44,430 bases of DNA from Peptococcaceae bacterium CEB3 (GTDB taxonomy: Bacteria > Bacillota > Desulfitobacteriia > Desulfitobacteriales > Desulfitobacteriaceae), in NCBI GenBank assembly GCA_001029295.1, contig LDXJ01000035.1, positions 1 through 44,430 on the forward strand, given 5' to 3'. Every line of letters starts with the position of its first letter. Positions within the stretch are counted from its first letter, which is position 1. Of this stretch, positions 5,221 to 41,125 are shown piece after piece. The notes below the pieces were generated by a model that saw nothing but the letters and a program-made list of their open reading frames with translations, ran no database searches and was not told the origin of the DNA. Both the position numbers and the translations under genes were made by a program.

Positions 5221-5227
5221 TGATAGT

Positions 5228-10238: not shown

Positions 10239-10271
10239 AATGGTGGTTTGTACAGATGGTCATAAATAATC

Positions 10272-10877: not shown

Positions 10878-10898
10878 ATTTTGGTCACCCCACTACTT

Positions 10899-13736: not shown

Positions 13737-14060
13737 TCGGGGGTAAGTTATAGACATCATCGTAACTTAATGCTCCGAAAGAACCGTTCTGCCCTTACAT
13801 TGTCTAAAGCCTGGCCTTTGCCATCCATTGAAATCCGGATACCCTTCTCTTCGAGTAACTTGATATAGTCAGGATTCGTGAAATGGCTGCCTTGATCGCT
13901 GTTCATGGTGTCCGGCTTGCAGCGGCTAAAGGCTCGCTTCAGACATGTCATGACAAAGCCCTTTTCCAGTGTGCTCGACAGTTCATAATCCACAATGCAC
14001 CTGCTATACCAATCTATAATAATGAAGAGAAACATGAATCCTTTGGGCATGATATACTGT
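13737..14060 (-). pseudogene. IS3-family transposase (orfB) remnant
   Basis: Minus-strand text MPKGFMFLFIIIDWYSRC, TLEKGFVMTCLKRAFSRC, NSDQGSHFTNPDYIKLLEEK and VRAERFFRSIK is the middle and end of an IS3/IS150-type integrase core. The second catalytic Asp (SDQG) and the Glu (AERFF) are present; the first Asp and everything before MPKG are lost. One extra T near 13767 shifts the frame, after which KYDDVY can be read. No inverted repeats or orfA are present, so it cannot move by itself. Confidence 0.85.
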
Positions 14061-14185
14061 GTTCGGGAAGAGAAAGATTCCGGCATGATGTCATATCTGG
14101 GGGCGCCGGGAGGGTAATCACCCGCCAGTTGCGCCTTTCGCCCTGCTTGCACTTGCTCTGGCCCGTTCAATAGTCAAGGTTAACC
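14045..14185 (+). repeat. Chimeric repeat: IS3-side fragment fused to a piece of the 115-residue gene
   Basis: Positions 14045-14137 match the block inside both large repeats (4184-4277 and 9390-9485; GGGCATGATATACTGTGTTC and following). At 14135 the match switches to codons of the 115-residue membrane gene (CTTTCGCCCTGCTTGCACTT, up to GTTAACC at 14185). The junction shares only CCTT/CTTT, as in a micro-homology join. Confidence 0.85.
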
Positions 14186-14237
14186 ATAACTTTGCTATTA
14201 CTACAAAACTTGAAATTTAGAAGGGGGTTAAACATAG

Positions 14238-25709: not shown

Positions 25710-28034
25710 TCACACATTCGCGCGGCTATCTCTTTCACGTTTTTCTTTCAGGGCGCGCCAAACTTTCTCATAAGACATGGGCAGGCTATTGATCCGCACG
25801 CCGGTCGCATGGTAGATGGCATTCGCAATGGAACCCATCGTGGGAGTGGTGGCGCCTTCTCCCACTTCTTTGACGCCCCAGGGGGCATTCGGTTCATAGC
25901 TGTCTACGAGCTCAGAATGAAATTGCGGCATATCCAAGGCGGTAGGGATACGGTAATCAGCCAGGTTGGCATTTAAGATCTTGCCCTTTTTATCAAAAAG
26001 CACTTCTTCCCAGACGGATTCGCCCATACCCATGAAGAAAGCGCCGTGCACTTGGGCATGGAGGAGGGCCGGATTAATCACTTGGCCGCAGTCATGGACA
26101 TCCCAGGCTTCGACGAGGTTCACCTCGCCCGTTTCCTCATCGACTTCAACTTCTGTTACCTGGGCGGCAAAACTGTAAGCCGGTGAGGTGCCAACCGCGG
26201 CTCCCTTGAACTTGCCGCCCAGTTTGGGTGGAATATAGGAGCCTTTACCGACCAGAGGGCCCTTTTTGACGAAGAACTCGCGCGCGACATCGGCGAAGGT
26301 GCGCCGCCTTTCGGGTTTCTCTTTAACATAAATTATTTCAGCCTGAGCGTCAAGTTCTGCCGCCGGAACTCCGAAGGAAGAGGCAGCCAGTTCCAGCAGT
26401 TGATTTTTTACTTCTTCGCCGGCCTGTTTGACCGCGGCGCCGGACATCAAGGTCTGGCGACTGGCATAGGCGCCAAAATCATGGGGCGCCGCCTCCGTAT
26501 CGGCCGAGATGATATTCATTTTCTCGAAAGAGTAACCCATGGCCTCGGCTGCCATCTGGCAGAGGATGGTATCGCTGCCCTGCCCGATGTCAACAGCGCC
26601 TGTATAAAGGGTGGCGGAACTGCCATCTTCGTTGACTTTAATCACTGCCGCGGCGTGGGGGAGGTCAGTGCGGTAAATCGGGTAACCGGCGCCGGAGACA
26701 AAGGCCCCCAGGCCAATGCCAATCCCTCGGCCTTGGGACAGGGTCTTTCTTTTCTCGTCCCAATGAGAAATGTCCCGGGCCTTCTCGATCGCCGCCTGGA
26801 GAGCACAGGATCCCACTTTAAATTCGTTGGGGGTTATGGTGCCGGGCTTACGGGCATTGCGTAGGCGGAGGTCAATCGGATCCAGTCCTAAATGATGGGC
26901 GATATTGTCCAAGTGGCTTTCAAAAGCAAATCGGGGTTGGGGATGACCGTGCCCGCGTTGGGCGCCGCAAGCCGGCAAATTAGTGTAAACCCGGTACATG
27001 TCAAAGCGGTAATTAGGAAAGTCATAGAGAATGGTCAAAAGAGCGCCGGCATAATAGGCGCTTGCTACGCCCAGACTGGTATAGGCGCCGCCATCCATGA
27101 GGAAATCAGCGTGAACCCCGAGGATCTTGCCCTCCTTATCTACCCCGGTGGTGAGGTTCATATATTGGCGGTGCCGTCCCCGGTTATGGGCAAACATTTC
27201 GTGCCGGTCGTAAAACATTTTAACGGGCTTTCCAGTGATTTTGGCTAAGGCGGCTCCGGCAAATTCCAAACCGGTCGGCTCGAGTTTACCCCCAAAGCCG
27301 CCGCCGATGTAAGTTTTCAGCACCCGGACATTTCCCAGCGGGAGCCCGAACTGGCGAGCGATGTAGTACTGGAAGTAGTGCGGAGATTGGGTGCTAGAAT
27401 AGACGGTTAGCTTATCCCCGTCCCACAGGGATATGGCGGAATGCGGTTCGATGGGCGTTTGATAGGCTCTTTGCCCCACGAAGCGGTCAGTACGAACGTA
27501 GAAGCTTTCGGCAAAGGCCTTTTCAACGTCCCCGAAGTTCTGATGAATTTCGGTATTGATGTTGTGCGGGTAATCGGCCTGAATTAAGGGAGCATCTTCG
27601 TCCATAGCTTTTAAAGGATCGAGGATAGCCGGCAAAACTTCATATTCTACCCGGATCATTTTCAGGGCTTTATAGACAGTTTCTTCATCCACGGCGGCTA
27701 CGGCAGCGATTTTATCCCCAACGAACAGGGCCTTGTCAATGCAAAAAATATTTTCATCCCAGCGGGCCGGACTGATTCCGTACTTTTGGGAAGGGACGTC
27801 CTTGTGTGTGATCACGGCTTTGACACCGGGAAGTTTCTCGGCTGCGGATGTATCGATATGCACGATTCTGGCATGCGCGTAGGGACTGGTAAGAATTTTG
27901 CCTACCAGCATCCCCGGAAATTTCAGATCCCCGGTATATTTGGCCTGACCGGTCACTTTGGCCTTGCCGTCTATCCGCTTTACGCTTTTGCCAATGACAC
28001 TGTACGTGTCGCCCGGGCTTTGGATCTCAGTCAT
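25710..28034 (-). CDS. Molybdenum-cofactor subunit of a xanthine-oxidase-family hydroxylase
   Basis: 774 residues of the large molybdopterin subunit. The N-terminal domain has SVKRIDGKAKVTGQAKYTGD; cofactor-binding motifs include GGGFGGK (about 244-250), QRGHGHPQ and DIGQGSDT. The C-terminal GVKEVGEGATTPTMGSIANA carries the general-base Glu726 of the family. Members hydroxylate N-heterocycles or aldehydes, or run in reverse as 4-hydroxybenzoyl-CoA reductase, which removes a phenolic OH. The DIGQGSDT and KEVGEG segments recall the latter, and the aromatic cluster 2.5 kb away fits, but the substrate is not proven. It overlaps the 2Fe-2S gene by four bases. Confidence 0.85.
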   Translation of the reverse strand: MTEIQSPGDTYSVIGKSVKRIDGKAKVTGQAKYTGDLKFPGMLVGKILTSPYAHARIVHIDTSAAEKLPGVKAVITHKDVPSQKYGISPARWDENIFCIDKALFVGDKIAAVAAVDEETVYKALKMIRVEYEVLPAILDPLKAMDEDAPLIQADYPHNINTEIHQNFGDVEKAFAESFYVRTDRFVGQRAYQTPIEPHSAISLWDGDKLTVYSSTQSPHYFQYYIARQFGLPLGNVRVLKTYIGGGFGGKLEPTGLEFAGAALAKITGKPVKMFYDRHEMFAHNRGRHRQYMNLTTGVDKEGKILGVHADFLMDGGAYTSLGVASAYYAGALLTILYDFPNYRFDMYRVYTNLPACGAQRGHGHPQPRFAFESHLDNIAHHLGLDPIDLRLRNARKPGTITPNEFKVGSCALQAAIEKARDISHWDEKRKTLSQGRGIGIGLGAFVSGAGYPIYRTDLPHAAAVIKVNEDGSSATLYTGAVDIGQGSDTILCQMAAEAMGYSFEKMNIISADTEAAPHDFGAYASRQTLMSGAAVKQAGEEVKNQLLELAASSFGVPAAELDAQAEIIYVKEKPERRRTFADVAREFFVKKGPLVGKGSYIPPKLGGKFKGAAVGTSPAYSFAAQVTEVEVDEETGEVNLVEAWDVHDCGQVINPALLHAQVHGAFFMGMGESVWEEVLFDKKGKILNANLADYRIPTALDMPQFHSELVDSYEPNAPWGVKEVGEGATTPTMGSIANAIYHATGVRINSLPMSYEKVWRALKEKRERDSRANV

Positions 28035-28555
28035 GCTTGTTCCCCCTCCTCCGGAGCGGTTTTCTCGGCTACAGCGAGAATGGCTTTAACAATGTTTACA
28101 TACCCGGTGCAGCGGCACAGATTGCCGGAGATGGCTTCCCGCACTTCCTTCTCGCTGGGATGCGGGTTGTGGGTCAGCAGGGCTTTACCGGCCAGGATCA
28201 TCCCCGGAGTGCAGTAGCCACATTGGACGGCGGCATTTTCAAGAAAAGATTCCTGTAGTCCGTCTAATTTGTCGTTGTGACTGACGCCTTCGATCGTGGT
28301 TATCTCATGTCCCTCTGCTTCGACGGCCAGCACCAGGCAGGAATTGACGGGTTTTCCATCGATCAGGACTGTACAGGAGCCGCAATCTCCCAGTTCACAC
28401 CCTTTCTTGGTTCCGGTCAAGTCCAGTTGGTCCCTGAGTACGTTTACGAGCAGAGCATTTGCTTTTACGGCTAAGGTACGCGTGTCGCCGTTGACATTTA
28501 GGTTGATTAGATGATATTTCCTCTGCCCGGAATCCGTTAGAACTTCAGCCACCAC
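28031..28555 (-). CDS. [2Fe-2S] subunit of the molybdenum hydroxylase
   Basis: 174 residues. The plant-type cluster ligands are Cys53, Cys58, Cys61 and Cys73 (CELGDCGSC, NSC). The second cluster uses CGYC (112, 115) and CRC (147, 149). Both clusters of the xanthine-oxidase family are complete. An N-terminal extension of about 15 residues precedes the usual start. The stop overlaps the start of the Mo subunit and the gene follows the FAD subunit by nine bases, so all three are one operon. It passes electrons between the molybdenum and FAD subunits. Confidence 0.92.
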   Translation of the reverse strand: MVAEVLTDSGQRKYHLINLNVNGDTRTLAVKANALLVNVLRDQLDLTGTKKGCELGDCGSCTVLIDGKPVNSCLVLAVEAEGHEITTIEGVSHNDKLDGLQESFLENAAVQCGYCTPGMILAGKALLTHNPHPSEKEVREAISGNLCRCTGYVNIVKAILAVAEKTAPEEGEQA

Positions 28556-28563
28556 GGCACCTC

Positions 28564-29433
28564 CTAAATATGTTCTTTTTGGATTGCTTTGTGCAGAGCC
28601 CGGCGGGTTAGAACCCGGATCAGATCGCGCCGATATTCCGTTGATCCGCGGATGCTGCTGCGCGGTCTGCTTTCTTGGGCGGCCGCCAGGCCTGCCTGTT
28701 CCAGTAACCCCGGTGTCACGCGCTGCCCTACGATGACTTGTTCCGCCTGGCGAGCGCGCAGGGGCAGCGGAGCCGCTGCCGCCAAGACGATGCGGGCACT
28801 GCGGCAGATTTCGCCTTCCATGGTGACCGCAACGGCGACGCCGGCAATGGCCAAGGCGCCGGATTTACGCAGGCCAAACCGGATATAGGTGCTACCAGTC
28901 GTTGTTTGAGCGGGAACAATTACTTGGGTCAGAATTTCATCATCCCGAATTACAGTTTTGTGTACGCCCAGAAAGAATTCCTCCAGTGGAACCGTCCGTT
29001 CTCCTTCTGTACTCACCAAAGTGATTCTAGCACCGAGGACTATCAGGATCGGGGGCAGGTCCGCGGATGGCACGGCATTGACGATATTCCCACCGATTGT
29101 GCCCATGTGCCGGATTTGATTATTGGCCATATTCCAGGCAGCTTCGCTAATGGATCGGTATTTTTCCTGTAAAAGAGAGGAGTTGGCAATTTCATTTTGA
29201 GTGGCCAAGGCGCCGATCAACAAATCCTGCCCTGGTTCGGAGCGGATTTCTCTCAACGCTGACAGGTTTTTCAGGGAAATGATCACTTCCGGGGTGAACT
29301 CTTCGTGCTTCATTTTGTGCAACAGGTCCGTACCACCGGCCAGGATTTTGGCTCGGGAACCAAATTCCCGCAAAAGGCGGCAAGCCTCACTCAGATCCGG
29401 TGGCGCATAATAATCGAAATCCGGTAGATACAC
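28564..29433 (-). CDS. FAD subunit of the molybdenum hydroxylase
   Basis: 289 residues of the CoxM/XDH-medium type. It starts LPDFDYYAPPDLSEACRLL, and FAD-binding motifs are AKILAGGTDLL and NQIRHMGTIGGNIVNAVP, followed by SADLPPILIVLGA. The C-terminal domain ends RGSTEYRRDLIRVLTRRAL. It is about the standard length. 4-Hydroxybenzoyl-CoA reductases have an extra [4Fe-4S]-binding loop of about 40 residues in this subunit; no such loop and no Cys cluster are visible here, so if it is such an enzyme it lacks the extra cluster. First gene of the operon. Confidence 0.9.
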   Translation of the reverse strand: MYLPDFDYYAPPDLSEACRLLREFGSRAKILAGGTDLLHKMKHEEFTPEVIISLKNLSALREIRSEPGQDLLIGALATQNEIANSSLLQEKYRSISEAAWNMANNQIRHMGTIGGNIVNAVPSADLPPILIVLGARITLVSTEGERTVPLEEFFLGVHKTVIRDDEILTQVIVPAQTTTGSTYIRFGLRKSGALAIAGVAVAVTMEGEICRSARIVLAAAAPLPLRARQAEQVIVGQRVTPGLLEQAGLAAAQESRPRSSIRGSTEYRRDLIRVLTRRALHKAIQKEHI

Positions 29434-29749: not shown

Positions 29750-30292
29750 TCAATCGAAAACCCTATGAGCCAAGAGAATGCCCAAAGCTGTTTTCCCGTC
29801 TGGGAACTTCCCTTGTTGGGCCATCAGGATAGCTTTAGACCATGGAATTCTCTCTATCTCCAGGAATTCTCCTGCATCAAGGGGGAGAGGATCCCACACT
29901 AAATTTTTGCCCAAAAAGAAGTGAATCATTTCGTCAGAATACCCTACAGACATCAGAAAACTCCCGAGGGGTTCGAGGTTGGCCCGGAATCCGGTTTCTT
30001 CCCGCAGTTCCCGTTCAGCACCGGTACGTGGGGCTTCCTGCGGATCCAAGCGTCCGGCCGGGATTTCTAAAACAGTTTGTCCAAGGGCATAACGGTATTG
30101 ACGTACTAACAACAAGTCTCGGGCTTGAATAGCTATCACGGCTACAGCGGGAGGAACCTTGACGATTTCCCGTACGGACTCTTGTCCGTTCGGCAGTAGA
30201 ACAGAGTCACGATGCAGGTGGATGATGCGTCCTGCAAACAGGATTTCGCCCTTGAGCTTGGTTTCAGTCAGGCTTTTCATAGACTTAAGCAC
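29750..30292 (-). CDS. Nudix hydrolase, ADP-ribose pyrophosphatase-like
   Basis: 180 residues with a perfect Nudix box: Gly80, Glu86, then R94-E-L-R-E-E-T-G-F102 (GX5EX7REUXEEXGU). Upstream IIHLHRDSVLLPNG and VAVIAIQARDLLLVRQYRY, and downstream SVGYSDEMIHFFLGKNL, are typical of ADP-sugar hydrolases (NudF type). It is probably a housekeeping enzyme; its position between the molybdenum operon and the divergent aromatic cluster does not by itself imply a link. Confidence 0.88.
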   Translation of the reverse strand: MLKSMKSLTETKLKGEILFAGRIIHLHRDSVLLPNGQESVREIVKVPPAVAVIAIQARDLLLVRQYRYALGQTVLEIPAGRLDPQEAPRTGAERELREETGFRANLEPLGSFLMSVGYSDEMIHFFLGKNLVWDPLPLDAGEFLEIERIPWSKAILMAQQGKFPDGKTALGILLAHRVFD

Positions 30293-30499: not shown

Positions 30500-32875
30500 A
30501 TGAAACCAGAATGGTTAAGGTTGCAGGATATTGTTGGAATGGATACGGAAGAAGGGTTTATCTCTTTCCGGGGGAACAGACTTCTTCTTTTCCATGCGGA
30601 TTCGCTTCGTCAACTCAAGGATGAGCTCATCAGGACCCTGGGGTTTGACTTGGCACGGGGAGTGTTTTCCCGATTTGGTTACAGATGTGGACAGAACGAC
30701 AGCCAAAGTATAAAAACAATTTTCGAGCCGAAAGCCGAAAATGAATGGATGTTAGCTGGCCCCAAATTACATACTCTGGAGGGTATGGTGCACGTCACAA
30801 ATGAGGTGCTCGATTATGACCGCCAGTCCAACCATTTTTACATGAGAGGAATTTGGCGCAATTCCTATGAGGCGGAAGAGTACCTGAAGATTTATGGCCG
30901 TTCCGAGCAATCTGTGTGCTGGACATTGGTGGGTTACACCAGCGGATATTGCAGTGAATTTTTCGGCCGTGAAACGATATGTGTGGAGACGAAATGCGTG
31001 GCCCATGGGGATCCCTATTGTCAATACGAAGTGAGGACCAAGGAGGAATGGGATGGAAGGGCGGACAAATACCGGTATGATTTACAACCGAATGCAGTGG
31101 TCAAAAGCTTGCAGCACATGTTGCGGGAAGAAAGGGAAAGGGTTGGCCAATGGCGGGTTTTGAATGATACTGCCTTGCTTCTCTCCCAGGGTCTCAACTT
31201 TGATCCTGTCGATAAAGCGGTTTACCATAAGATATGCCAGTTACTATTTGCAGAGAAGGCTTACTTAGCTGTGTGCGAGGATCATGGTCCGGACTGCCGA
31301 ATTTTTGCCTATGAATTGGCTGCAGACTCGGTGCGGCAAAAGATGGTTAAAGACAAACTGGGAGTTCTTCTCAACCTGATGGTCAACGGTTCATCAATTC
31401 ATCTGGGGGGAGAAAACCTTCCGCTGGGGATGAGTTTTCTTGGCAACTTCAGGGATTTGCTGGGGGTACCTTTGGTTGTCAACGGTCGTGAGACGGGACT
31501 CGTGTTTGTGGTCAACAAAATGACGGCAGAAGGTTTCACCTACTATGACGAAAACCTTCTCACCGTGCTCGGCTCACAAATGGCAATGGCCATGGAAAAC
31601 ACGAGATTGTACCAGTTGACGGATAGGAAATTGAAGGATAAAAACCAGGAGTTAATAAGAATCAATGAATATTTGACAGAACAGCAGAAATTCATGCAGG
31701 AGTCAATGAGTCTCCATGATCGGCTAACCAGTCTGGTGCTGGAAAACGCCGGTATCCACAAAATAGTTAATACTATGAGTCAGGCTATAGGACTGCCTGT
31801 CTGGATTGAGGACAAGGATCTTCGAGTTATGGCAAGAAACAAAAACGGAGCTACGGGGGATTCAGCAGTAGGTGGCCTTCTAACCGTTAGCTCTGAGTCA
31901 GAGCTGCGCGAGGTTCTTGCCAGAAAACAGACCGAGGTTTTGGCAAGAGTTGATTGCTACGGCAAGAAAGTACGCCTCTGTTTCACTCCCATTATTGCGG
32001 GCAAGGAGATCCTGGGCGTCCTCGTGGTGGATCTCCTGAATAAGAGTCTGGCGGAGGATGTGAAACTCATTCTGAGGGACGCCAGTGTGATCATTGCCCT
32101 GGAAATTCTCAAGCGGAAAGTGCTTGTTCAGGACAAAAGACGCTTGGTAAAGAACCTACTTGACGACTGGCTTTTTGGCGAAAGTTGCAACGAAGAGCAG
32201 GTTCTGGACCGGATTTTTAAGCTGGGCCTGGCATTGGATTATCCCATAAACCAATTTGTTTTGGAAGTTTCCGGGGAAGAATTCGGACAGCTCAAGCGAC
32301 TTGTAAATAACTTGGAGGAAAGGCTTCCAGCGCAGGGAATCGTGGGATTTCAGGACCATCAGGTTGTGGTGCTTTTTTGCCAGGATCAAGACGGCCTGGT
32401 GGTGGAACAGATGGCGGGAGATTTAGAAAAAGAGCTGTCGGAAATTCCACATCTCCAGTATTGGCTCACCATCGCCGCCAAAAGTGACAGCATTGAAGAT
32501 ACGAGGCAGAATTTTATCAATGCGTGCGCAGTCAACAAAATCCTCAAACTCCTTCAGAAGAACAACACCAGTTTCCGCTACGAACAGCTTGGGGTTTACG
32601 GAATGTTGGGGATTCATCCGGAAAGGTTTGTTTGGTTTACAAACAAGCTTTTGGGGGAGGTGATTGAATATGATCGCAAACATAACACCGAACTCATCGT
32701 TACCCTTAAGTTGTTCTTTCAAAACAATCAAAATATACAGGCTACAGCCAGGCGCGGATTTATTAATAACGGAACCCTTAAATACCGTCTCAAGCGGATT
32801 CAGGAAATTGCTAAATTGAATCTCTCGGATTCTGATGTGAGCCTGCAGGTGCAATTAGCGTTAAAGTTTCTTTAA
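30500..32875 (+). CDS. Aromatic-sensing regulator: XylR_N + V4R + GAF + PucR-type HTH
   Basis: 791 residues from ATG 30500 (AGAGGAGA upstream; ATG 30458 lacks one). Residues 1-110 match the XylR/DmpR sensor (ISFRGNRLLLFHADSLRQLK, RGVFSRFGYRCG). Residues 120-185 are a V4R domain (GYTSGYCSEFFGRE, with Glu163, Cys166 and Cys174 as likely zinc ligands). A GAF-like domain (about 210-380), a short coiled coil (about 380-405) and a PucR/CdaR-like region follow, ending in the HTH ATARRGFINNGTLKYRLKRI. DmpR/XylR use this sensor with a sigma-54 AAA+ domain; here that is replaced by a PucR-type HTH. It probably senses a phenolic and activates the downstream genes. Confidence 0.88.
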   Translation: MKPEWLRLQDIVGMDTEEGFISFRGNRLLLFHADSLRQLKDELIRTLGFDLARGVFSRFGYRCGQNDSQSIKTIFEPKAENEWMLAGPKLHTLEGMVHVTNEVLDYDRQSNHFYMRGIWRNSYEAEEYLKIYGRSEQSVCWTLVGYTSGYCSEFFGRETICVETKCVAHGDPYCQYEVRTKEEWDGRADKYRYDLQPNAVVKSLQHMLREERERVGQWRVLNDTALLLSQGLNFDPVDKAVYHKICQLLFAEKAYLAVCEDHGPDCRIFAYELAADSVRQKMVKDKLGVLLNLMVNGSSIHLGGENLPLGMSFLGNFRDLLGVPLVVNGRETGLVFVVNKMTAEGFTYYDENLLTVLGSQMAMAMENTRLYQLTDRKLKDKNQELIRINEYLTEQQKFMQESMSLHDRLTSLVLENAGIHKIVNTMSQAIGLPVWIEDKDLRVMARNKNGATGDSAVGGLLTVSSESELREVLARKQTEVLARVDCYGKKVRLCFTPIIAGKEILGVLVVDLLNKSLAEDVKLILRDASVIIALEILKRKVLVQDKRRLVKNLLDDWLFGESCNEEQVLDRIFKLGLALDYPINQFVLEVSGEEFGQLKRLVNNLEERLPAQGIVGFQDHQVVVLFCQDQDGLVVEQMAGDLEKELSEIPHLQYWLTIAAKSDSIEDTRQNFINACAVNKILKLLQKNNTSFRYEQLGVYGMLGIHPERFVWFTNKLLGEVIEYDRKHNTELIVTLKLFFQNNQNIQATARRGFINNGTLKYRLKRIQEIAKLNLSDSDVSLQVQLALKFL

Positions 32876-32889
32876 ACGGAGGGAGAATA

Positions 32890-33516
32890 ATGCCGAGAAG
32901 ACGCAGAATTATTGTTGGAATTTCCGGTGCTTCAGGAGCAATTTATGGCATTCGCTTGCTGGAAAGTTTGGAAGTCGCGGGAGTGGAAACTCATCTGATT
33001 GTTTCTCCCGATGCGGAACGGACTATTCTGACAGAAACCAGGTACAACATGGAACAAGTGTGCGGATTAGCATCCGTGAACTATGAACATAGCAACGTGG
33101 GTGGCGCGGTGGCCAGTGGTTCGTTTCTTAGCGATGGAATGGTCATTGCTCCTTGTTCCATCAAAACTATGTCCGCGGTAGCCCATTCATATAACGATAA
33201 TTTGTTGGTTCGGGCAGCGGATGTCTGCCTGAAAGAAAACCGGAAACTTGTTTTAATGGTCAGAGAGACACCTTTGCATCTTGGTCATCTGCGTTTACTG
33301 ACGGAGCTGGCAGAAACGGGGGCCGTAATCTTGCCGCCGATGCCGGCGTTTTACCATCTTCCCCAGTCCATTGAAGATATTGTGAATCAAACGGTGGGCA
33401 AAGTTTTGGATCAATTTGGGGTTAGGCATGACCTGTTCCGCAGGTGGAATGGAGAGGTGGCAGAGGAACAAAGGACGGTCAAACCCCAATTGATTAAGGG
33501 GTGGAAAGTCAAATGA
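32890..33516 (+). CDS. ubiX: UbiX-type flavin prenyltransferase
   Basis: 208 residues, 14 bases after the regulator stop, with CGGAGGGAG before the ATG. The flavoprotein fold starts RRIIVGISGASGAIYGIRLL, continues with VIAPCSIKTMSAVAHSYNDN and KLVLMVRETPLHLGHLRLL, and ends in LPPMPAFYHLPQSIEDIVN. These are the FMN- and dimethylallyl-phosphate-binding motifs of UbiX. UbiX makes prenylated FMN, the cofactor that UbiD enzymes need; a UbiD gene is the last of this cluster. A ubiX gene inside an aromatic (de)carboxylase operon is common. Confidence 0.93.
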   Translation: MPRRRRIIVGISGASGAIYGIRLLESLEVAGVETHLIVSPDAERTILTETRYNMEQVCGLASVNYEHSNVGGAVASGSFLSDGMVIAPCSIKTMSAVAHSYNDNLLVRAADVCLKENRKLVLMVRETPLHLGHLRLLTELAETGAVILPPMPAFYHLPQSIEDIVNQTVGKVLDQFGVRHDLFRRWNGEVAEEQRTVKPQLIKGWKVK

Positions 33517-33530
33517 GCTTCAAAATATGA

Positions 33531-33543
33531 TTATCCACTTTGG
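33531..33543 (+). promoter_or_regulatory. Candidate regulator site 2 (TTATCCACTTTGG)
   Basis: Second exact copy of the 13-mer at 30356, in the 147-base gap between ubiX and the UPF0261 gene. A gap this size inside an otherwise tight cluster, with a repeated motif, suggests a second promoter here. Confidence 0.4.
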
Positions 33544-33663
33544 CTAAGAAACCGATTTGATTTTTGCCCATTACAGGAATATTCAGGGATCAAACCTTAT
33601 GGTAAGATTTAAATTATTGATAGTAAGAAGATTGCGAAAGTTCACGTAAAGGAGGTGAGAAAA

Positions 33664-34887
33664 CTGAAGAAGACGGTCGCTGTTGTAAGTACTTTGGATA
33701 CCAAGGCGGCAGAGACTTATTACCTGAGGGAACAAATTGAAAGAAGAGGATGCAGGACTCTTGTTATTGATTTGGGAACCAGGGGTGAAGCCCGTTTTCC
33801 GGCCGACGTGACCAGAGAGGAGATTTTTGCTCTGGGCAATCGCGGGGTGGCCGTGTCCGTGGTGGAGGACAGAGTAAGACTGGGAGAAATCATGACGGAT
33901 GGGGCTGCCACCAAGATTAAGGAATTGTATGCTTGTGGTCAGATTCATGCGGCCATTGGTTTGGGAGGAGCCACAAACAGCCTCATGGAAACAAACATTA
34001 TGCGGGTTCTCCCTTTTGGAGTTCCCAAACTGATGGTGAGCAGTGTTGCAGCATCCCGTGGCCTAGCCAGCCGTTACTTCGGAACCGCAGACATTTCCAT
34101 TATGCATTCTGTGGTCGATTTCACCGGTCTCAACGTGTTGACTAAGGATGTTCTGGAACGTGCCGCCGGATCCATAACGGGTATGATAAACGTACCGGAG
34201 CGGGAAGCAGGACTCATTGCGGATAAAAACCTCATAGCGATCACTCAGCTGAGTTTGTGCGAAAGAACCGCTGCGTTCGTGCGGGAACGTTTACAAGAAG
34301 AAGGGTTTCAGGTGATTGGATTCTCGGCAACCGGGGTAGCAGACAAGGCCATGGAGGAGCTCATTGAACGGGAAAGTCTGTTCAGAGCGGTAATTGACCT
34401 TGCTCCCGGGGGGGTCGGAGAAAATATATTGGGTGGTACAAGGTCTGCGGGTCCCAACCGTCTGGAGGTTGCCGGCAAAAATGGGGTGCCCCAGATTATC
34501 GCTCCCTGTGGGGTAAATCTGATGACACCGCCGCGGAGCAAATACAAACCCGAATACTATCGGCGACCAAAATATGATCTTGACCCGTTACGCACATTTC
34601 TGAGGCTAAGTTCGAACGAACTTATAACAGTCGCACAGGCGATGGCCCAAAAACTTAACATGGCGATAGGTCCGGTGAAGGTTTTGATTCCCTTGCGAGG
34701 ATGGGCTTCATTTGATATGGAGGGGTGCGCAATTTATGATCCGGAAAGCGATCGCATTTTCACCAAAGAATTCAGGCACAGGGTAAACAGGAACATCGAG
34801 ATCGTTGAAGTGGATGCCAACATTGATGAACCTGAATTTGGCGCGGCAGTGGTTCAGGCTTTTCATGACGTAATGGAGTATACCTGA
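33664..34887 (+). CDS. UPF0261/Tm-1-like ATP-binding family protein, probable CTG start
   Basis: 407 residues. The family N-terminus KKTVAVVSTLDTKAAE is directly preceded by CTG at 33664, five bases after AAAGGAGGTGA. The GTG at 33655 lies inside that Shine-Dalgarno sequence, so CTG is the better start. Motifs: IGLGGATNSLMETNIMRVLP, TADISIMHSVVDFTGLN, GFSATGVADKAMEELIE, APGGVGENILGG, and a conserved C-terminal PLRGWASFDMEG. The family (plant Tm-1 N-terminal half) binds ATP; its chemistry is unknown. Elsewhere it is often paired with a TIM-barrel phosphonopyruvate-hydrolase-like protein, absent here. The tight operon position suggests a role in substrate activation. Confidence 0.85.
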   Translation: MKKTVAVVSTLDTKAAETYYLREQIERRGCRTLVIDLGTRGEARFPADVTREEIFALGNRGVAVSVVEDRVRLGEIMTDGAATKIKELYACGQIHAAIGLGGATNSLMETNIMRVLPFGVPKLMVSSVAASRGLASRYFGTADISIMHSVVDFTGLNVLTKDVLERAAGSITGMINVPEREAGLIADKNLIAITQLSLCERTAAFVRERLQEEGFQVIGFSATGVADKAMEELIERESLFRAVIDLAPGGVGENILGGTRSAGPNRLEVAGKNGVPQIIAPCGVNLMTPPRSKYKPEYYRRPKYDLDPLRTFLRLSSNELITVAQAMAQKLNMAIGPVKVLIPLRGWASFDMEGCAIYDPESDRIFTKEFRHRVNRNIEIVEVDANIDEPEFGAAVVQAFHDVMEYT

Positions 34888-34906
34888 GGGGAAGGGAGAT
34901 GAAAGA

Positions 34907-36586
34907 ATGATACCAGTACGCTATGATGAACAGACAGCAGCCGAATATAAGGCAAAGGGTTATTGGTCAGACGAAATTTATTCTGATTTTTGGGAAGAAA
35001 ATGCTCGCAAGTACCCGGATAGGGAAGCTTTGGTGGATTCCAAGGGAAAGCGTCTGACTTGGGCTGAAGCAAGCAAGCAGATCCAGCAGGTAGCTCTCAA
35101 GTTGGTAGAACTGGGCATTTCTAAGGATGCCAGAGTGGTTATCCAGCTTCCGAACTGTGTCGAGGGATTTGTGGCGAGGTTAGCCTGCGAAAAGGCGGGA
35201 GCCATATCGATGACGCTGATGCACACTCTCAGACACAAAGAATTAGAAGAAATAATTGGATTGTTAGAGGCCTCCACGGTTATTATCCCTTACATGTACC
35301 GCAATTTTGATTATTATGCGATGCACAGGGAGATCCAAGAGTCGCTACCACTTCTGAAAAATGTGATCGTTATCGGTCCGGAAATTCCGGAGGGAGCCAT
35401 TTCGTTTGATGAAATAATCAACACGCCTACGGAGAAAAACTATCCGAGCGACTATCTCAAGGACCGTCGGCTTGATCCCACACATGTGGGGTTTCTTACG
35501 ACCACCACCGGAACAACCGGGGTGCCCAAAGTCGTTGAGCAAACCTTGGCAGCCCGACTCTGGAGCACCAAAACCCATATAAAAAACTGGAAACTGGGTC
35601 CAGATGATGTGGTATGTGCCGTTGCACCTTGGGCTGGATCGCCGGGTGGAACGCCTACTTATTTCTGTGCTCCTCAAGTGGCAGCCAAAATAGCCTTACT
35701 GTATGAATACACGGCCCCCAATGCCCTCGAATTCTTTCAGACAGAACGCGTTACCATTCCTGCTGTGGTGCCCGCCCAATTGGCTATGATTATTCAGGAA
35801 CCTTTGGAGAACTATGATTTAAGCTCAATAAGGGCAATTCGCTGCTCCGGCGGGTATCTTTCTCCCACTCTGGCAGAGGAAGTAGAACGTAAATTTGGGA
35901 TTCCGATTCTCAGTACCTATGGTTCACAGGACACCGGCTCAGTTTCGGGTGTTGCTCTCACGGACTCAGCAGAAAAGAGGCGTTCTACTGTGGGTCGCCC
36001 TTTACAGGGCAATCAGATTAAGATAGTGGACGATGCGGGGATTATTTTGCCACAGGGGGAGGTCGGACAACTTTATTTCCGAGGGCCGCAAAGTTCCAGT
36101 GGCTATTACAGGGATCCGGAGAAAACCTTTTCTGAGGCCTACGATGCGGAAGGTTGGGCTTCACCCGGTGATCTGGCAAAACTGGACGATGACGGCTACA
36201 TCGTGATTGCCGGCCGAAAAAAAGACATCATCATCCGGGGCGGGCAAAACATTTATCCGGGTGAGATTGAGAATGCCTTAATGGCGCACCCAAAGGTTTC
36301 CAATATCGCCGTGGTAGCCATGCCGGACAAGATTATGGGGGAAAAAGCCTGCGCTTTTGTGATTCCTGCTAATCCGCAGGATCCCCTTACATTTAATGAG
36401 ATGCTTGTCTATCTGCGGACAAAGAAGATAGCCAATTACAAATTACCGGAGCGGCTGGAAATTGTGAACACATTTCCGCTTGCTTCTGAATCCAAGATCA
36501 ATAAGAAACGACTGCGGGAGATTGTTGCTGCCATGCTGAAAGAAGAAGGCTTGTTTGAGGAACGGGCATCGGGAGTTTTCGAGTAA
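34907..36586 (+). CDS. AMP-binding acyl-CoA ligase / aryl-AMP ligase
   Basis: 559 residues of the ANL superfamily. TTTTGTTGVPKV (about 198-209) is the ATP-binding loop; then STYGSQDTGS and GDLAKLDDDGYIVIAGRKKD with IIRGGQNIYPGEIE mark the adenylate and hinge motifs, and SKINKKRLREI carries the catalytic C-terminal Lys. The N-terminus resembles 2,3-dihydroxybenzoate-AMP and aryl-CoA ligases. In this cluster it would activate the aromatic acid made by the UbiD enzyme (4-hydroxybenzoate-like) to its CoA thioester. No carrier-protein gene is near, which favours a CoA ligase over an aryl-carrier ligase. The gap to the UPF0261 gene is 19 bases. Confidence 0.85.
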   Translation: MIPVRYDEQTAAEYKAKGYWSDEIYSDFWEENARKYPDREALVDSKGKRLTWAEASKQIQQVALKLVELGISKDARVVIQLPNCVEGFVARLACEKAGAISMTLMHTLRHKELEEIIGLLEASTVIIPYMYRNFDYYAMHREIQESLPLLKNVIVIGPEIPEGAISFDEIINTPTEKNYPSDYLKDRRLDPTHVGFLTTTTGTTGVPKVVEQTLAARLWSTKTHIKNWKLGPDDVVCAVAPWAGSPGGTPTYFCAPQVAAKIALLYEYTAPNALEFFQTERVTIPAVVPAQLAMIIQEPLENYDLSSIRAIRCSGGYLSPTLAEEVERKFGIPILSTYGSQDTGSVSGVALTDSAEKRRSTVGRPLQGNQIKIVDDAGIILPQGEVGQLYFRGPQSSSGYYRDPEKTFSEAYDAEGWASPGDLAKLDDDGYIVIAGRKKDIIIRGGQNIYPGEIENALMAHPKVSNIAVVAMPDKIMGEKACAFVIPANPQDPLTFNEMLVYLRTKKIANYKLPERLEIVNTFPLASESKINKKRLREIVAAMLKEEGLFEERASGVFE

Positions 36587-36620
36587 ATAAAAAACACGAT
36601 AAGGCAAAGGAGGATCTGCT

Positions 36621-38336
36621 ATGGAAAATTTAGAATTTGCCGATCACCAGGTGGAATGGTTGCCGACTAAGGCCTACCGTCCTGAGGATGAAAAAAGATT
36701 ATGGTTTCATGACAACCTGCATAATAATCCACCGATCAGCCCGATGGGGGCCTCTGTCTACCATTGGCCGCGGGGAACTAAGTATGCAGCCGAGTGGTTT
36801 ACATTTCCCTATTCGCGTGGATTTGATTATGTGCTCTACTACGGTCGGATCTATCCGAGTCCCATACCCATCACGGATCCAGAAGAGATTAAGAGTAAAG
36901 AGCCTATTTTCGGGCAGAAACTGTTTGAAATGGTCAATAATTGGCCGCAGCGTTACGCTGAAGTTGTGGAGGAATGGACTGGATCGCTCAATTATTTGAA
37001 GGGAATTGACAAGAAAGCACTACCTCTGGAGCGGCTGCTTAATCTACTGCGCGATGCGGTCAGTATTTCCAAACGCAGTTGGGAGCTCCATTTTGTGTGT
37101 ATGTATCCGGCTCACTTTGCCTATATGACTTTTGAGGCCCTCTGTCAAAAGTATGGCATTGAAGAAAGACAGATGCGCGTTTTTCTGCAGGGATTTGAAA
37201 CCAAAATGTATGAAATTGACAGGGGCCTCTGGGCGCTGGCCAAAGTGGCCGACGAATTGGAACTGGTGGAAGAGTTCAACGAAATTGCCAGCCAGAGCGA
37301 GCTATTTGAGAAGTTGTCCCAAAGCACTAAAGGCAAGCTCTGGTTGGGGAAGTTTAACGAGTTTTTGGCGGAATATGGTCGGCGTACCACGGCAGCCTTG
37401 TTTGATCCCTACTACAAAACCTGGATCGAGAATCCTATGCCGGCCTTTACCACAATCCAGACCTATATCCTGAAAGGGAGCTTCAATTTTGAAGCACATA
37501 CCAAAAAAATTATTGAAGAACGGGATCAAATGATTGCCAAAACGATCGACGGGATTCCGGAAGCTGAACGGCCAGAGTTCCTTCAGGCTTTGAAACATGC
37601 GCAATATACGTATCCTTTTAACGAAGACCACAATTTTTATGTGGAGCAGTGGACCTATTCGGAACTGCGCTATGTGATTCAGGAATGCGGAAGACGCCTC
37701 GTGCACTGGGGTTTCATGGCTGAAACTGACGATGTGTTTTTTATGACCATTGATGAGTTGGATGAGGTGTTGTCTGACATCAAGGTCGACAAGAAAATTG
37801 GCATTATGGATCACTGCGACCGGGTGCGGAATATGGTGACAAGGCGGAAGTCCGTCTGGCAGGAACTGCATGAGATCAAAGTACCTGCCATCATTGGGAC
37901 GGTACCTGAAGGCAGAATCGACGACCCGGTATTCATCAAGATCTGGGGGATGACGGATGACGTTATCCGCGGTCAGGCTAAACCGGAAATCGATATCGCC
38001 AACCGGTGGGAGGGATTCCCCGGGGCGCCCGGGATTGTAGAAGGAGTTGCCCGAGTCATTTTAGGCTATGAAGGTTTCTCTGAGGTGCAGCCTGATGAAA
38101 TTCTGATCGCTCCCTTTTCCACACCGGCCTGGACGCCTCTCTTTTCCAAAATTAAGGGAGTGGCCACAGATAGCGGCGGGATGCTGGCTCATGCAGCGAT
38201 CTGTGCCAGGGAATATGATATTCCGGCTGTGGTGGGTACGATTACCCGGGGTAAAAAGGTAACTGAAGGAATTAAGACCGGACAGCGGGTGCGGATAGAC
38301 GGCACCAAAGGAGTGGTTGAACTCCTTTCCGATTAG
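36621..38336 (+). CDS. PEP-utilising phosphohistidine subunit, phenylphosphate synthase alpha (PpsA)-like
   Basis: 571 residues that hold only the later part of a PEP-synthase-like enzyme: a long helical substrate region (about 90-440, e.g. VSISKRSWELHFVCMYPAHF) and a C-terminal swivelling domain, GFPGAPGIVEGVARV, then TDSGGMLAHAAICAREYDIP with carrier His524. The ATP-grasp domain is absent and is encoded by the next gene. The His-domain gene before the ATP-grasp gene is the PpsA-PpsB split of Thauera phenylphosphate synthase, which phosphorylates phenol with ATP through a phosphohistidine. Start ATG after AAAGGAGGA. The arene substrate is not shown by sequence. Confidence 0.82.
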   Translation: MENLEFADHQVEWLPTKAYRPEDEKRLWFHDNLHNNPPISPMGASVYHWPRGTKYAAEWFTFPYSRGFDYVLYYGRIYPSPIPITDPEEIKSKEPIFGQKLFEMVNNWPQRYAEVVEEWTGSLNYLKGIDKKALPLERLLNLLRDAVSISKRSWELHFVCMYPAHFAYMTFEALCQKYGIEERQMRVFLQGFETKMYEIDRGLWALAKVADELELVEEFNEIASQSELFEKLSQSTKGKLWLGKFNEFLAEYGRRTTAALFDPYYKTWIENPMPAFTTIQTYILKGSFNFEAHTKKIIEERDQMIAKTIDGIPEAERPEFLQALKHAQYTYPFNEDHNFYVEQWTYSELRYVIQECGRRLVHWGFMAETDDVFFMTIDELDEVLSDIKVDKKIGIMDHCDRVRNMVTRRKSVWQELHEIKVPAIIGTVPEGRIDDPVFIKIWGMTDDVIRGQAKPEIDIANRWEGFPGAPGIVEGVARVILGYEGFSEVQPDEILIAPFSTPAWTPLFSKIKGVATDSGGMLAHAAICAREYDIPAVVGTITRGKKVTEGIKTGQRVRIDGTKGVVELLSD

Positions 38337-38345
38337 GAGGACGCT

Positions 38346-39332
38346 ATGATTAAATTCTTGGAAGATTGCTCAAGAAATGATGTGGCGCTTGTAGGTGGCA
38401 AAGGGGCAAGTCTGGGAGAGTTGAGTAAGGCGGGAAAACAAGTGCCACCGGGTTTTACCATTACTGTAAATGCCTATCGTAAGTTCGCCACGACAACCGG
38501 GGTAAGCCAGATTATTAACAGCTTGTCGGTTGAAGGGAAGGTATCACATATTCGGATCAGGGAGGAACTGGAGCCACACTTGCTAAGTGCCGGCATTCCG
38601 GAAGATGTGGAGGATGCCATCCGGAAGGCGTATTTGCATTTATCCCAGAAAGTGGGCGGGAATCCCCTTGTGGCAGTCCGATCCAGCGCTACCATGGAGG
38701 ACGGTACAAGTACCAGTTTTGCCGGTCAGCATGAAACATTTCTCAATGTCTTGGGAATTGAAGATGTGCTGGACAAAACGCTCAAATGTTGGGCCAGTAT
38801 GTTCTCAACCCATGCCTTGCATTACCGGTCCGCTAATGACATCCCTATTGAGGAGGAGGCTATGGCCGTAGTCGTCCAGAAAATGGTTAATGCGAAAGCT
38901 TCTGGAGTGGCTTTCACGGTGGATCCTGTAAGCGGGGATCAGAGTAAAGTGGTGATTGATGCTTCCTGGGGTTTGGGAGAGGGAATTGTCGGCGGTCTTG
39001 TGACACCGGATCACTTCGTAGTGGATAAAGAGAGTCTGGAAATTACGGAACGATGGATATCTCCAAAGAGCATGGAGGTTGTACGGGATGCTCAAAGCGG
39101 AGAGACCATTCATAGAGAGGTGGCTAAGGAAAGACAAAATACATCTTGTCTCACGGCTATGGAAATAAAGTCGATTGCTCAGATTGCAGTGTCCATTGAA
39201 GAGCACTACGGACAACCTCAGGACATAGAGTGGGCATTGGAGCGAAGTATTCCTTTTCCCAAAAGCCTCCTTGTCCTGCAAAGCCGTCCTGTTACAGTGT
39301 GGGGTAGGGCTAAGATGGGATTACAACATTGA
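38346..39332 (+). CDS. ATP-grasp (PPDK N-terminal) subunit, phenylphosphate synthase beta (PpsB)-like
   Basis: 328 residues covering just the nucleotide-binding domain of PEP synthase: LVGGKGASLGELSKAG, VAVRSSATMEDGTSTSFAGQ, VVVQKMVNAKASGVAFTVDP, ASWGLGEGIVGGLVTPD and QDIEWALE..LLVLQSRPV. It starts ten bases after the PpsA-like stop behind GGAGG. It should bind ATP and phosphorylate the His of the partner protein. A PpsC-like third subunit with CBS domains, present in Thauera and stimulatory there, is not found in the window. Confidence 0.85.
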   Translation: MIKFLEDCSRNDVALVGGKGASLGELSKAGKQVPPGFTITVNAYRKFATTTGVSQIINSLSVEGKVSHIRIREELEPHLLSAGIPEDVEDAIRKAYLHLSQKVGGNPLVAVRSSATMEDGTSTSFAGQHETFLNVLGIEDVLDKTLKCWASMFSTHALHYRSANDIPIEEEAMAVVVQKMVNAKASGVAFTVDPVSGDQSKVVIDASWGLGEGIVGGLVTPDHFVVDKESLEITERWISPKSMEVVRDAQSGETIHREVAKERQNTSCLTAMEIKSIAQIAVSIEEHYGQPQDIEWALERSIPFPKSLLVLQSRPVTVWGRAKMGLQH

Positions 39333-39362
39333 AACAAAAATCAAAAAGGGGGATCTACAGGT

Positions 39363-40778
39363 ATGGCAACTAACGACTTGCGTAATTTTATCGCGCAGTT
39401 GGAGAATAACGGTGACTTGATGCGGATCAAAACCGAAGTGGATTGGAATCTGGAACTGTCCCATGTGGCCAAGGTCAACGAGGAAAAAAACGGGCCGGCG
39501 CTATTGTTCGAAAATGTCAAGGACTATCAAACCCCGGTTTTCGTGAGTGCTCTTTCAACCACTCAACGCTTGGCCGTGGCCATGAATATGCCCATCAACA
39601 CCACGCTGAGCCAGATGGCTAAGGAATGGGTTGTCCGTACCAAGAAGCTTATTCCCCCGGTCTGGGTGGAGAGCGGACCGATCAAGGAGAATATCGATGT
39701 AGGGGAACAGATCGATCTTTTCAAATTCCCTGTACCGAAGTTTTATGAGAAGGACGGCGGTCGCTACATCGGAACCTTTGTCAGTGTGGTAACAAAAGAT
39801 CCCGAGACGGGCTGGGTGAATCTGGGTACCTACAGAATGCAGATCCTTGATGAGAAAACGTGCGGTATTATGTTTATCAAAGGAAAGCACGGGGATTTGC
39901 ATCGCATGAAATATGCTAAACTGAACAAGCCGATGCAGGTGGCGGCTATCATAGGTTACGACCCGCTTATGTTTCTCGTTTCCAGCACCCTGATCGGGGC
40001 GGGAGAGGACGAGTATAATTATGTTGGCGCTTTGCGCGGTTCACCGGTGGAGGTGGTGAAAGGAGAATATGTGGACTTGCCCATTCCGGCTGCCGCAGAG
40101 ATGGTGATCGAGGGAGAACTATGGCCGGAAAAACTACGGGATGAAGGACCCTTCGGTGAATATACGGGTTATTATTCCGGTAAAGGGACGGTTCCCCGCC
40201 ACTATATTGATGTAAAAGCTGTTACCTACCGTAAGGACTTGATTTTTCATGCCACAACGGTGGGACGACCAGTTACGGATACCCACATGATTCAGGCCAT
40301 GAACAGGACTTCAACCCTGTGGTCTGACCTGGAGGCCATGAAAATTCCCGGTATTCAGTCTGTCTACATCCCTCCTGAGTCGTGTGGCCGGTTTATGGCG
40401 GTTGTATCGGTGAAACAGATGTATCCGGGACACTCCAATCACGTTGGGAACGCTGTGATTGCCACAAGCACAGGTTCCTATGGAGTGAAAGTGGTGGTTG
40501 TTGTGGATGAGGACATTCCGGCGGACGACATGGGACGGGTGTTGTGGGCTATGAGCACCAGGATGGCGCCGGAACGGGGCGTGCAGATAATTTCCCGGGG
40601 TCGCTCCACTCCGCTGGACCCATCCTTGCCCATTCAGGGGAGGGATATTACTTCCCGCATCATCATGGACTGTTGTATACCTTATGAATGGGAGGAAAAA
40701 CCTACGAATATCCAGCTGACGGATTCCGTTCTGGCCCATGTCTTGGAGAAATGGAAAGATTATGGGTTTAATGAATAG
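39363..40778 (+). CDS. UbiD-family prenyl-FMN-dependent (de)carboxylase
   Basis: 471 residues. The UbiD catalytic triad is visible: Arg158 (LGTYRMQ) with Glu261 and Glu266 (DEGPFGEYTGYYS). Prenyl-FMN/metal ligands fit Asn153, His176 and Glu230 (GSPVEVVKGE). The C-terminal part has MDCCIPYEWEEKP. Family enzymes (de)carboxylate aromatic or unsaturated acids reversibly. In this cluster it is the likely carboxylase of the phosphorylated arene, or a simple hydroxyarene carboxylase. Thauera phenylphosphate carboxylase needs two UbiD-like subunits plus gamma and delta; only one is here. The start lies 30 bases after the PpsB-like stop, behind AAAGGGGG. Confidence 0.9.
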   Translation: MATNDLRNFIAQLENNGDLMRIKTEVDWNLELSHVAKVNEEKNGPALLFENVKDYQTPVFVSALSTTQRLAVAMNMPINTTLSQMAKEWVVRTKKLIPPVWVESGPIKENIDVGEQIDLFKFPVPKFYEKDGGRYIGTFVSVVTKDPETGWVNLGTYRMQILDEKTCGIMFIKGKHGDLHRMKYAKLNKPMQVAAIIGYDPLMFLVSSTLIGAGEDEYNYVGALRGSPVEVVKGEYVDLPIPAAAEMVIEGELWPEKLRDEGPFGEYTGYYSGKGTVPRHYIDVKAVTYRKDLIFHATTVGRPVTDTHMIQAMNRTSTLWSDLEAMKIPGIQSVYIPPESCGRFMAVVSVKQMYPGHSNHVGNAVIATSTGSYGVKVVVVVDEDIPADDMGRVLWAMSTRMAPERGVQIISRGRSTPLDPSLPIQGRDITSRIIMDCCIPYEWEEKPTNIQLTDSVLAHVLEKWKDYGFNE

Positions 40779-40911: not shown

Positions 40912-41125
40912 TTCGTTTACCCTGAAAGCTATTAGTTGCCACCCTAAGATTTTTAGGCATGTTAACTAAGCGAAAGTAACCACTCGAGGGGTTGGGAATA
41001 TAGACGGATATTGATATAAAGAAGAATTTATGTCAATATGGTCATACGAGGAAAGCGCGAAACAGGAGGTGAGCAAATGGAATAAACTTAGTTCATGGAT
41101 ATGGGGATAAGAGGGAGTGGTCTGT

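Follow-up and report, generated by a model that had tools for sequence, protein, structure and literature searches.

The window described here is the whole stretch of 44,430 nucleotides that was analysed, contig LDXJ01000035.1 of Peptococcaceae bacterium CEB3. Seven genes on the plus strand occupy positions 30500-40778 and encode an aromatic sensor, UbiX, a UPF0261 protein, an AMP ligase, a swivel (His-domain) subunit, an ATP-grasp subunit and UbiD. Judged by its sequence, this operon is a real, conserved and compact variant of the phenylphosphate synthase (Pps) and phenylphosphate carboxylase (Ppc) system, with a recurrent and unexplained UPF0261 partner. The intergenic gaps are, in order, 14, 138, 19, 34, 9 and 30 bases long. 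The gene labels are backed by Pfam and NCBIfam profile searches of the window proteins, and together with the open reading frames (ORFs) these bear out the seven genes, their labels, the single strand and the mostly short gaps given by a sequence-only reading of this DNA. Its description of the host as a Firmicute also fits, as the nearest named relatives are Bacillota metagenome-assembled genomes (MAGs) and Desulfosporosinus (Desulfitobacteriaceae). The seven genes are:

30500..32875, plus strand: aromatic-sensing regulator with XylR_N, V4R, GAF and PucR-type helix-turn-helix (HTH) domains (Pfam XylR_N 3e-27, V4R 9.1e-11, HTH_30 5.8e-15).
32890..33516, plus strand: ubiX, flavin prenyltransferase making the prenylated flavin mononucleotide (prFMN) cofactor for UbiD (TIGR00421 244.9 bits, cut-off 108.9; 62% identical to Azoarcus UbiX).
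33655..34887, plus strand: UPF0261 protein with Tm-1-like fold, a putative phenol-handling accessory (Pfam UPF0261 N and C domains).
34907..36586, plus strand: aryl-acid AMP ligase / CoA ligase, a candidate 4-hydroxybenzoate-CoA ligase (Pfam AMP-binding).
36621..38336, plus strand: PpsA-like subunit with substrate-binding and swivel domain and His524 (PF00391, PEP-utilisers mobile; motif TDSGGMLAH).
38346..39332, plus strand: PpsB-like ATP-grasp subunit (PPDK_N 3.9e-101; 42% identical to Azoarcus PpsB).
39363..40778, plus strand: UbiD of a clade sister to PpcB, the sole carboxylase subunit found (TIGR02724 558.9 bits, cut-off 468.95).

The ORF of the sensor opens at 30458. We prefer the ATG at 30500, which the earlier reading had also chosen, because a relative begins at this residue and a ribosome-binding site is present. 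The sensor scores 135.9 bits against the MobR model, far under the cut-off of 999. The start codon of the UPF0261 gene is uncertain, as the GTG at 33655 overlaps the ribosome-binding site. The AMP ligase reached no NCBIfam cut-off among the matches listed, and its best solved-structure matches are 2,3-dihydroxybenzoate- and salicylate-AMP ligases. A scan for promoters and terminators was uninformative; it gave 11 and 10 sites, fewer than the means of 14.2 and 12.7 for shuffled sequence.

The identical seven genes in identical order are found in G279, a genome from another family of the same order, with identities in gene order of 59, 74, 69, 79, 79, 69 and 85%. Because all seven genes keep their order at 59-85% identity, the arrangement goes beyond chance. 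Partial or rearranged versions are present in G437, in two loci of Desulfosporosinus sp. BRH_c37 (L022 and L024), in G404 and in G431. The G437 cluster is cut upstream of the ligase, and L024 adjoins a fragment resembling the alpha subunit of 4-hydroxybenzoyl-CoA reductase (HCR; 67%). G404 has the sensor, UPF0261, ligase and UbiD genes together, with the swivel subunit and UbiX nearby, and the 3.8 kb contig of G431 holds only the swivel subunit and UbiD. A PpcB match with an E-value up to 1e-110 occurs in 6 out of the 73 genomes of the order, five of them over the cut-off and the sixth cut by a contig end, and 7 out of the 398 genomes drawn from the phylum exceed the cut-off. We refer to G000, G279, G437, G431, G404 and G414 as compact genomes and to G125, G329, G057, G259 and G285 as full-type genomes. 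Uncut compact-type UbiDs score 510-559 bits on the PpcB model and full-type ones 717-781 bits, except for G285 with 563 bits. Completeness is 98-100% for G000, G279 and G404, 83% for G437 and G431, and 94% with 7% contamination for G414, so the absence of a subunit is weaker in the last three. One contig scan gave 12 loci, none of them from Thauera or Desulfatiglans anilini, and the canonical reference is the Azoarcus sp. KH32C plasmid.

The motif TDSGGMLAH of the swivel subunit fits the pattern T/SxxGGxxxH, and the ATP-grasp domain lies on a separate gene, as in two-component small-molecule dikinases. In a tree of 29 rows the swivel subunit belongs to a clade of 10 (support 100/99) that also holds the compact clusters, G125, G329a and one Moorellales MAG; an Archaeoglobaceae row is adjacent to this clade. 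The swivel subunit lies outside the Azoarcus PpsA clade, also of 10 (100/100), which includes G329b, G465 and Rhodococcus, Rhizobium, Thermomicrobium and Acidimicrobiia-like rows. The window clade of the ATP-grasp subunit in a tree of 19 rows has 6 members (100/99) and again includes G125. The G125 genome has a complete PpcB-D-A-G-UbiD-UbiX-ligase-PpsB cluster, in which the swivel subunit and its partner have close relatives (67% and 57%), and in G329 both kinds of swivel subunit are found near one Ppc set. Thus the window-type swivel subunit also occurs with a full phenylphosphate carboxylase. The tree rows are a selection, and a separate clade is meant relative to those rows. L029 was omitted from all trees, the PpsB tree was built without L028, L029 and L030, and three rows in the swivel tree resembling rifampin phosphotransferase (RPH) were trimmed to their last 560 residues. 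Long branches were flagged in the swivel, UbiD and UPF0261 trees, with the window row never among them.

The structural model of the swivel subunit (predicted local distance difference test score, pLDDT, 75.9) matches residues 319-867 of rifampin phosphotransferase with Z 22.2 and a root-mean-square deviation (rmsd) of 9.8 over 462 aligned residues. An antibiotic phosphotransferase was nevertheless rejected: the three RPH-like rows are outside the window clade, in agreement with the earlier reading, and the domains are split over two genes. The fold match corresponds to the architecture reported for HpeH (PMC12167813). The Pfam search found no CBS domain, as expected for PpsC, in the seven operon proteins; the rest of the genome was not searched for PpsC.

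The window UbiD belongs to a clade of 6 (100/99) in a tree of 28 rows, from which the fragment of L022 with 241 amino acids was omitted. This clade is sister to canonical PpcB (7 rows, 100/100); the two join at 94/97, just under the star of the tool, and the window UbiD is outside the canonical PpcB clade. A grouping with UbiDs of unrelated substrate, which would have spoken against the phenylphosphate-type assignment, was thus not seen. UbiD keeps R158, E261 and E266, which we take to be the active-site arginine and the two glutamates, and with the ubiX gene present it has the features of a prFMN-dependent UbiD. All 6 UbiDs of the window clade have both H176 and H180, as do two distant UbiDs, but none of the 7 PpcB rows and none of the 5 PpcA rows does. 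The pair was also considered as a UbiD metal site; this was dropped, as the HMMER alignments place the site one residue off for E. coli UbiD.

The remaining carboxylase subunits were searched for with profiles in 12 genomes (11 for delta). The alpha model (PpcA, TIGR02723) is exceeded in five out of five full-type and zero out of six compact genomes and not in G398 of the same genus. Its only hits in the window genome are the window UbiD (234 bits, cut-off 564.6) and a distant UbiD (69 bits). The gamma model (PpcG, TIGR02725) gives the same pattern of five, zero and no match in G398, with none over the cut-off and none in the window genome. For delta (PpcD, TIGR02726) the five full-type genomes score 134 to 171 bits, and the six compact ones have only partial matches of 28-32 bits, like unrelated control genomes; the single partial match of the window genome has 27.8 bits. 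No delta match passes the cut-off of 282, even in full clusters, so the argument on delta rests on the contrast between full and compact genomes and on gene position. Apart from the operon UbiD, a single other UbiD (29% identical) is encoded in the window genome, on contig C64. G437 and G414 have 8 and 7 alpha-model matches in total, which limits the statement of a single UbiD to the window genome and to the PpcA and PpcB types. Within this scope the sequence-only reading was right about the lack of gamma and delta subunits and the single UbiD of PpcB/PpcA type, and no second Pps-Ppc set was found elsewhere in the window genome. Its phenylphosphate-type operon holds in part: the two-component dikinase, the PpcB-type UbiD and UbiX agree with it, and the swivel subunit, 29% identical to Azoarcus PpsA and outside the canonical clade, does not.

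Two further layouts contain related kinase genes. Loci L027, L028, L030 and L031 of Acidimicrobiia and relatives have PpsA/B-like genes, a PpcB-like UbiD (50-53% identical to the window UbiD) and a HAD-like hydrolase together; some also have UbiX and a regulator of IclR type, and Asp stands at the H176/H180 positions. In L047 (G121) and L048 (G186) PpsA/PpsB-like pairs lie beside aldehyde:ferredoxin oxidoreductase-like genes. The HAD-like and oxidoreductase labels come from reading the sequence.

The UPF0261 protein is present in all five compact clusters that can be assessed, namely the window, G279, the two of BRH_c37 and G404; those of G437 and G431 are cut by contig ends. Two out of the seven full clusters read, G057 and G259, carry a UPF0261 protein of another clade directly before PpcB, on contigs which begin at or just before this gene so that the Pps genes are out of view. 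No UPF0261 gene lies in the stretch read of the full clusters of G125, G329, G285 and Azoarcus, and G465 is cut on both sides. Across the phylum, UPF0261 matches with an E-value up to 1e-30 occur in 61 out of the 398 genomes. Loci were available for 30 of the 65 matches, and without the window, G279, G329 and G259 there are 26 background loci. None of these holds a Pps or UbiD homologue within the 1.5 kb flanks (shorter at five contig ends), and an ORF with the motif GAGAGTG is found in 18 (among L072-L098), mostly a TIM-barrel-like neighbour, which presumably resembles the TIM barrel fused in plant Tm-1. Three types are resolved in the UPF0261 tree (35 rows): that of the window, another linked to Ppc that comprises G057, G259 and a divergent additional copy in G404, and the one linked to GAGAGTG. 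G329c, a very long row that stems from a dikinase operon, groups with the window type. At L099 (G329:C31, 5880-12792) a two-component dikinase is found with UPF0261 (38%) and two genes labelled HMG-CoA-lyase-like from their sequence.

The model of the window UPF0261 protein (pLDDT 71.7, predicted template modelling score 0.57) matches Tm-1 with Z 29.4-30.2 and rmsd 8.6-9.5. It also matches PDB 9mpy with Z 28.4, rmsd 7.1, 379 aligned residues and 25% identity. This entry, the closest bacterial UPF0261 of solved structure, is Saro_1862 of Novosphingobium aromaticivorans, a UPF0261 domain protein that holds acetovanillone. The two share the fold, and the ligand of Saro_1862 is a phenol. The HpeHI dikinase likewise acts on acetovanillone (PMC12167813, PMC9618137). 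The structural match suggests that the window protein probably handles a phenolic ligand. The earlier reading had offered UPF0261 as a replacement for a missing part. This was not borne out, and the narrower ideas that it stands in for PpcD or excludes PpcD were rejected too, since G057 and G259 hold PpcB, PpcD, PpcA and PpcG as well as UPF0261 of the other clade.

Upstream of the operon a three-subunit molybdenum hydroxylase of the HCR type is encoded divergently on the minus strand at 25710-29433, and 1.1 kb separate its closer end from the start of the sensor gene. The features on this side are:

25710..28034, minus strand: 4-hydroxybenzoyl-CoA reductase alpha subunit (TIGR03194 1091.7 bits, cut-off 994.55; best solved match 1rm6_A).
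28031..28555, minus strand: HCR gamma-like 2Fe-2S subunit (from sequence; 8 Cys).
28564..29433, minus strand: HCR beta-like (FAD) subunit of 289 amino acids with 2 Cys (best match CO-dehydrogenase medium-chain-like).
29750-30292: NUDIX gene between the HCR operon and the sensor.

In Thauera HcrB the beta subunit carries a Cys-rich 4Fe-4S loop. The window beta subunit lacks this loop and scores 119.5 bits on TIGR03195 against a cut-off of 404.55. The betas of six other HCR-type operons all have 288-306 amino acids, and five of the six have 2 to 5 scattered Cys; that of G259 (L153) has three Cys at 157-161. HCR alpha exceeds the cut-off in 5 of the 6 compact and 2 of the 5 full-type genomes and not in G398, and in the window it adjoins the operon.

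We also searched for two markers of ring cleavage. The OAH/BamA model (TIGR03200, 12 genomes) is exceeded in G329 only, and G057 and G259 reach 366 and 365 bits at near full length. In the window genome, which is 98.5% complete, the best OAH match has 154 bits over 173 positions against a cut-off of 464, with a similar match in G398, G279, G431 and G125. For the Had dehydrogenase (TIGR03201) no genomes other than G329, G057 and G259 exceed the cut-off of 339; the best score in the window genome is 268 bits. The standard benzoyl-CoA ring-cleavage route is therefore probably absent from the window genome, as judged by these markers (benzoyl-CoA reductase itself was not searched for). As they were not found, we predict benzoate, or else a different use of benzoyl-CoA, as the end point. 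A conversion of phenol to benzoate is on record for the Firmicute Cryptanaerobacter (PMC5946492).

From the parts, their families, their conserved linkage and the subunits not found, we infer a set of reactions, their order, a substrate, an end product and a role for UPF0261. Phenol, or a close relative, appears to be the likeliest substrate. The ATP-grasp subunit (38346-39332) would phosphorylate His524 of the swivel subunit (36621-38336), which would hand the phosphate to phenol. The prFMN-dependent UbiD, with its cofactor supplied through UbiX, would then exchange the phosphate for CO2 para to the hydroxyl without PpcA, PpcD and PpcG. The AMP ligase would form the aroyl-CoA, and the divergent HCR would strip the para-hydroxyl to give benzoyl-CoA. 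Benzoate would be the likely end product, with dehydroxylation serving as an electron sink, and UPF0261 would probably bind phenol or the aryl phosphate and aid the carboxylase. We consider this pathway somewhat probable overall. It is favoured because UbiD exceeds the PpcB cut-off and forms a sister clade, because of the dikinase architecture and the G125 linkage, and because an HCR lies nearby. It is further favoured by the subunit contrast between compact and full-type genomes, by the similar gene content of the phenol-induced cluster in D. anilini (PMC6114531), by the negative result for the ring-cleavage markers and by the structural match of UPF0261. That these clusters form a distinct lineage, with a self-sufficient UbiD marked by the His pair, a dedicated UPF0261 partner and a phenol-to-benzoate electron sink without ring cleavage, is a tentative extension which we regard as doubtful.

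Several observations weigh against the phenol pathway. The swivel subunit is not a canonical PpsA, so its substrate may differ. The 29 kb that were read at the G404 cluster (121000-150000) showed no PpsB, and the pair is thus not co-located in every compact genome. The compact genome G414 has two OAH fragments at contig ends (333 and 132 bits), and OAH is also low in the full-type genomes G125 and G285 (153 and 75 bits), so that this marker does not track the carboxylase type. HCR-like enzymes are also described in the aniline clusters of D. anilini (PMC7500099) and hence are not phenol-specific. The phenylphosphoamidate system of that organism needed two UbiD subunits in vitro (PMC7500099), and the window genome has one of that type. 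This last point counts equally against the idea that the pair is a phenylphosphoamidate synthase, with UbiD making 4-aminobenzoate from aniline and an HCR-like enzyme removing the amino group. The Pas-alpha/beta proteins of D. anilini are 28% and 41% identical to Thauera PpsA/B (PMC7500099), resembling the 29% and 42% to Azoarcus PpsA/B here, and 03870, a putative 4-aminobenzoyl-CoA ligase, directly precedes Pas-alpha (03871) in the gene numbering (PMC7500099). Like identities to a third party show no kinship, however, and we hold an aniline pathway to be quite improbable.

With catechol as the substrate, or with a different substituted phenol (a cresol or lignin-derived phenol, for example), the product would be protocatechuate or the matching hydroxybenzoate, followed by formation of the CoA ester and dehydroxylation. 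The distinct swivel clade would suit such a substrate, as would the resemblance of the ligase to 2,3-dihydroxybenzoate- and salicylate-AMP ligases. Kinases related to this type use 4-cresol and hydroxyphenylethanones as substrates (PMC12167813), and the Firmicute D. gibsoniae is reported to degrade catechol via protocatechuate (PMC4148979). Against it, the HCR alpha exceeds the 4-hydroxybenzoyl-CoA cut-off, and the G125 member of the clade sits with a complete phenylphosphate carboxylase set, so that we judge a substituted phenol unlikely. In a further scheme UbiD would decarboxylate hydroxybenzoate to phenol, and the kinase would detoxify or store the phenol as its phosphate. UbiD enzymes accompanied by UbiX are often decarboxylases, and the solved relatives of the window UbiD are named so. 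Given the placement of UbiD next to PpcB, the recurrent kinase-carboxylase linkage and the nearby HCR, this direction is very improbable, and carboxylation of phenylphosphate is the direction that we adopt.

Outside these genes, an MtrA-like protein with a PterinBD-DUF4346 domain is encoded directly downstream of the operon at 41117-42349. As an operon member it was rejected, being absent from view in the other clusters. The window also contains a direct duplication, 4102-5678 and 9306-10980, with 98.6% identity over 933 bases and 97.7% over 651 bases. The duplicated segment carries a DJ-1/PfpI-like gene and a 115-amino-acid protein without family, and it flanks a TetR-like regulator (5921-6559) and a single-chain phosphoenolpyruvate-synthase/RPH-like protein of 775 amino acids (6556-8883) with no model over the cut-off. 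Short copies of the segment also lie at 14044-14192, and no inverted repeats of at least 20 bases were found at the duplicated segment.

What is new is the UPF0261 gene in all assessable compact clusters, the second UPF0261 clade before PpcB in two full clusters and the acetovanillone-bound relative; no description of the UPF0261 partner or of the separate kinase clade was found in the open-licence papers searched. Together with 9mpy the recurrent partner offers a concrete lead on a family of unknown function, and a lineage with single UbiD and UPF0261, if true, would assign a biochemical role to UPF0261 proteins of bacteria. The question of which phenylphosphate carboxylase parts are essential has already been raised for Geobacter and Desulfatiglans (PMC6114531); it can be addressed directly, with two or three purified proteins, from genomes where PpcA, PpcD and PpcG went undetected. 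If true, phenol carboxylation that leaves the ring intact would matter for anaerobic phenol turnover at contaminated sites.

Compared with known systems, the operon is a variant rather than a new kind, because reduced Pps-Ppc cores are published for Desulfatiglans, Geobacter and Syntrophorhabdus (PMC6114531, PMC5946492). The earlier remark that it has far fewer parts than Thauera is correct for the subunits not found in the genome and loses its novelty through these reports, one of which gives PpsAB, PpcB and the UbiX-like PpcY as the shared operon core (PMC5946492). The Firmicute D. gibsoniae is described as having the phenylphosphate carboxylase type typical of strict anaerobes (PMC4148979). 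The canonical pps-ppc clusters of Thauera and the Azoarcus sp. KH32C plasmid share the two-component dikinase, the PpcB-type UbiD and UbiX with the window. The Azoarcus cluster differs in a CBS-domain protein in the place of PpsC, in PpcD, PpcA, PpcG and a third UbiD, in a PpsA of another clade and in a PpcB without the H176/H180 pair. HpeHI and CreHI share the subunit with swivel and substrate-binding domains, the separate ATP-grasp subunit and the T/SxxGGxxxH motif, but HpeHI feeds the biotin-dependent carboxylase HpeCBA and CreHI starts 4-cresol catabolism, and neither is described as paired with UbiD in the cited text (PMC12167813, PMC9618137). Cryptanaerobacter is like the window in its predicted benzoate end product via 4-hydroxybenzoate, and a related genome is said to differ in using 4-hydroxybenzoate decarboxylase subunits BCD and no phosphorylation (PMC5946492). 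The phenol-induced phe cluster of D. anilini likewise contains PpsA, PpsB, a single PpcB, HCR genes and a gene resembling ubiX; its aryl-AMP ligase, induced and without assigned function, is annotated as 2,3-dihydroxybenzoate-AMP ligase. The cited text, in which UPF0261 does not appear, names D. anilini and G. metallireducens as lacking PpcG (PMC6114531). It differs from the window in a PpsA of 70 kDa that is 42% identical to that of Thauera, in PpcA and PpcD homologues elsewhere in the genome and in the presence of benzoyl-CoA pathway genes (PMC6114531).

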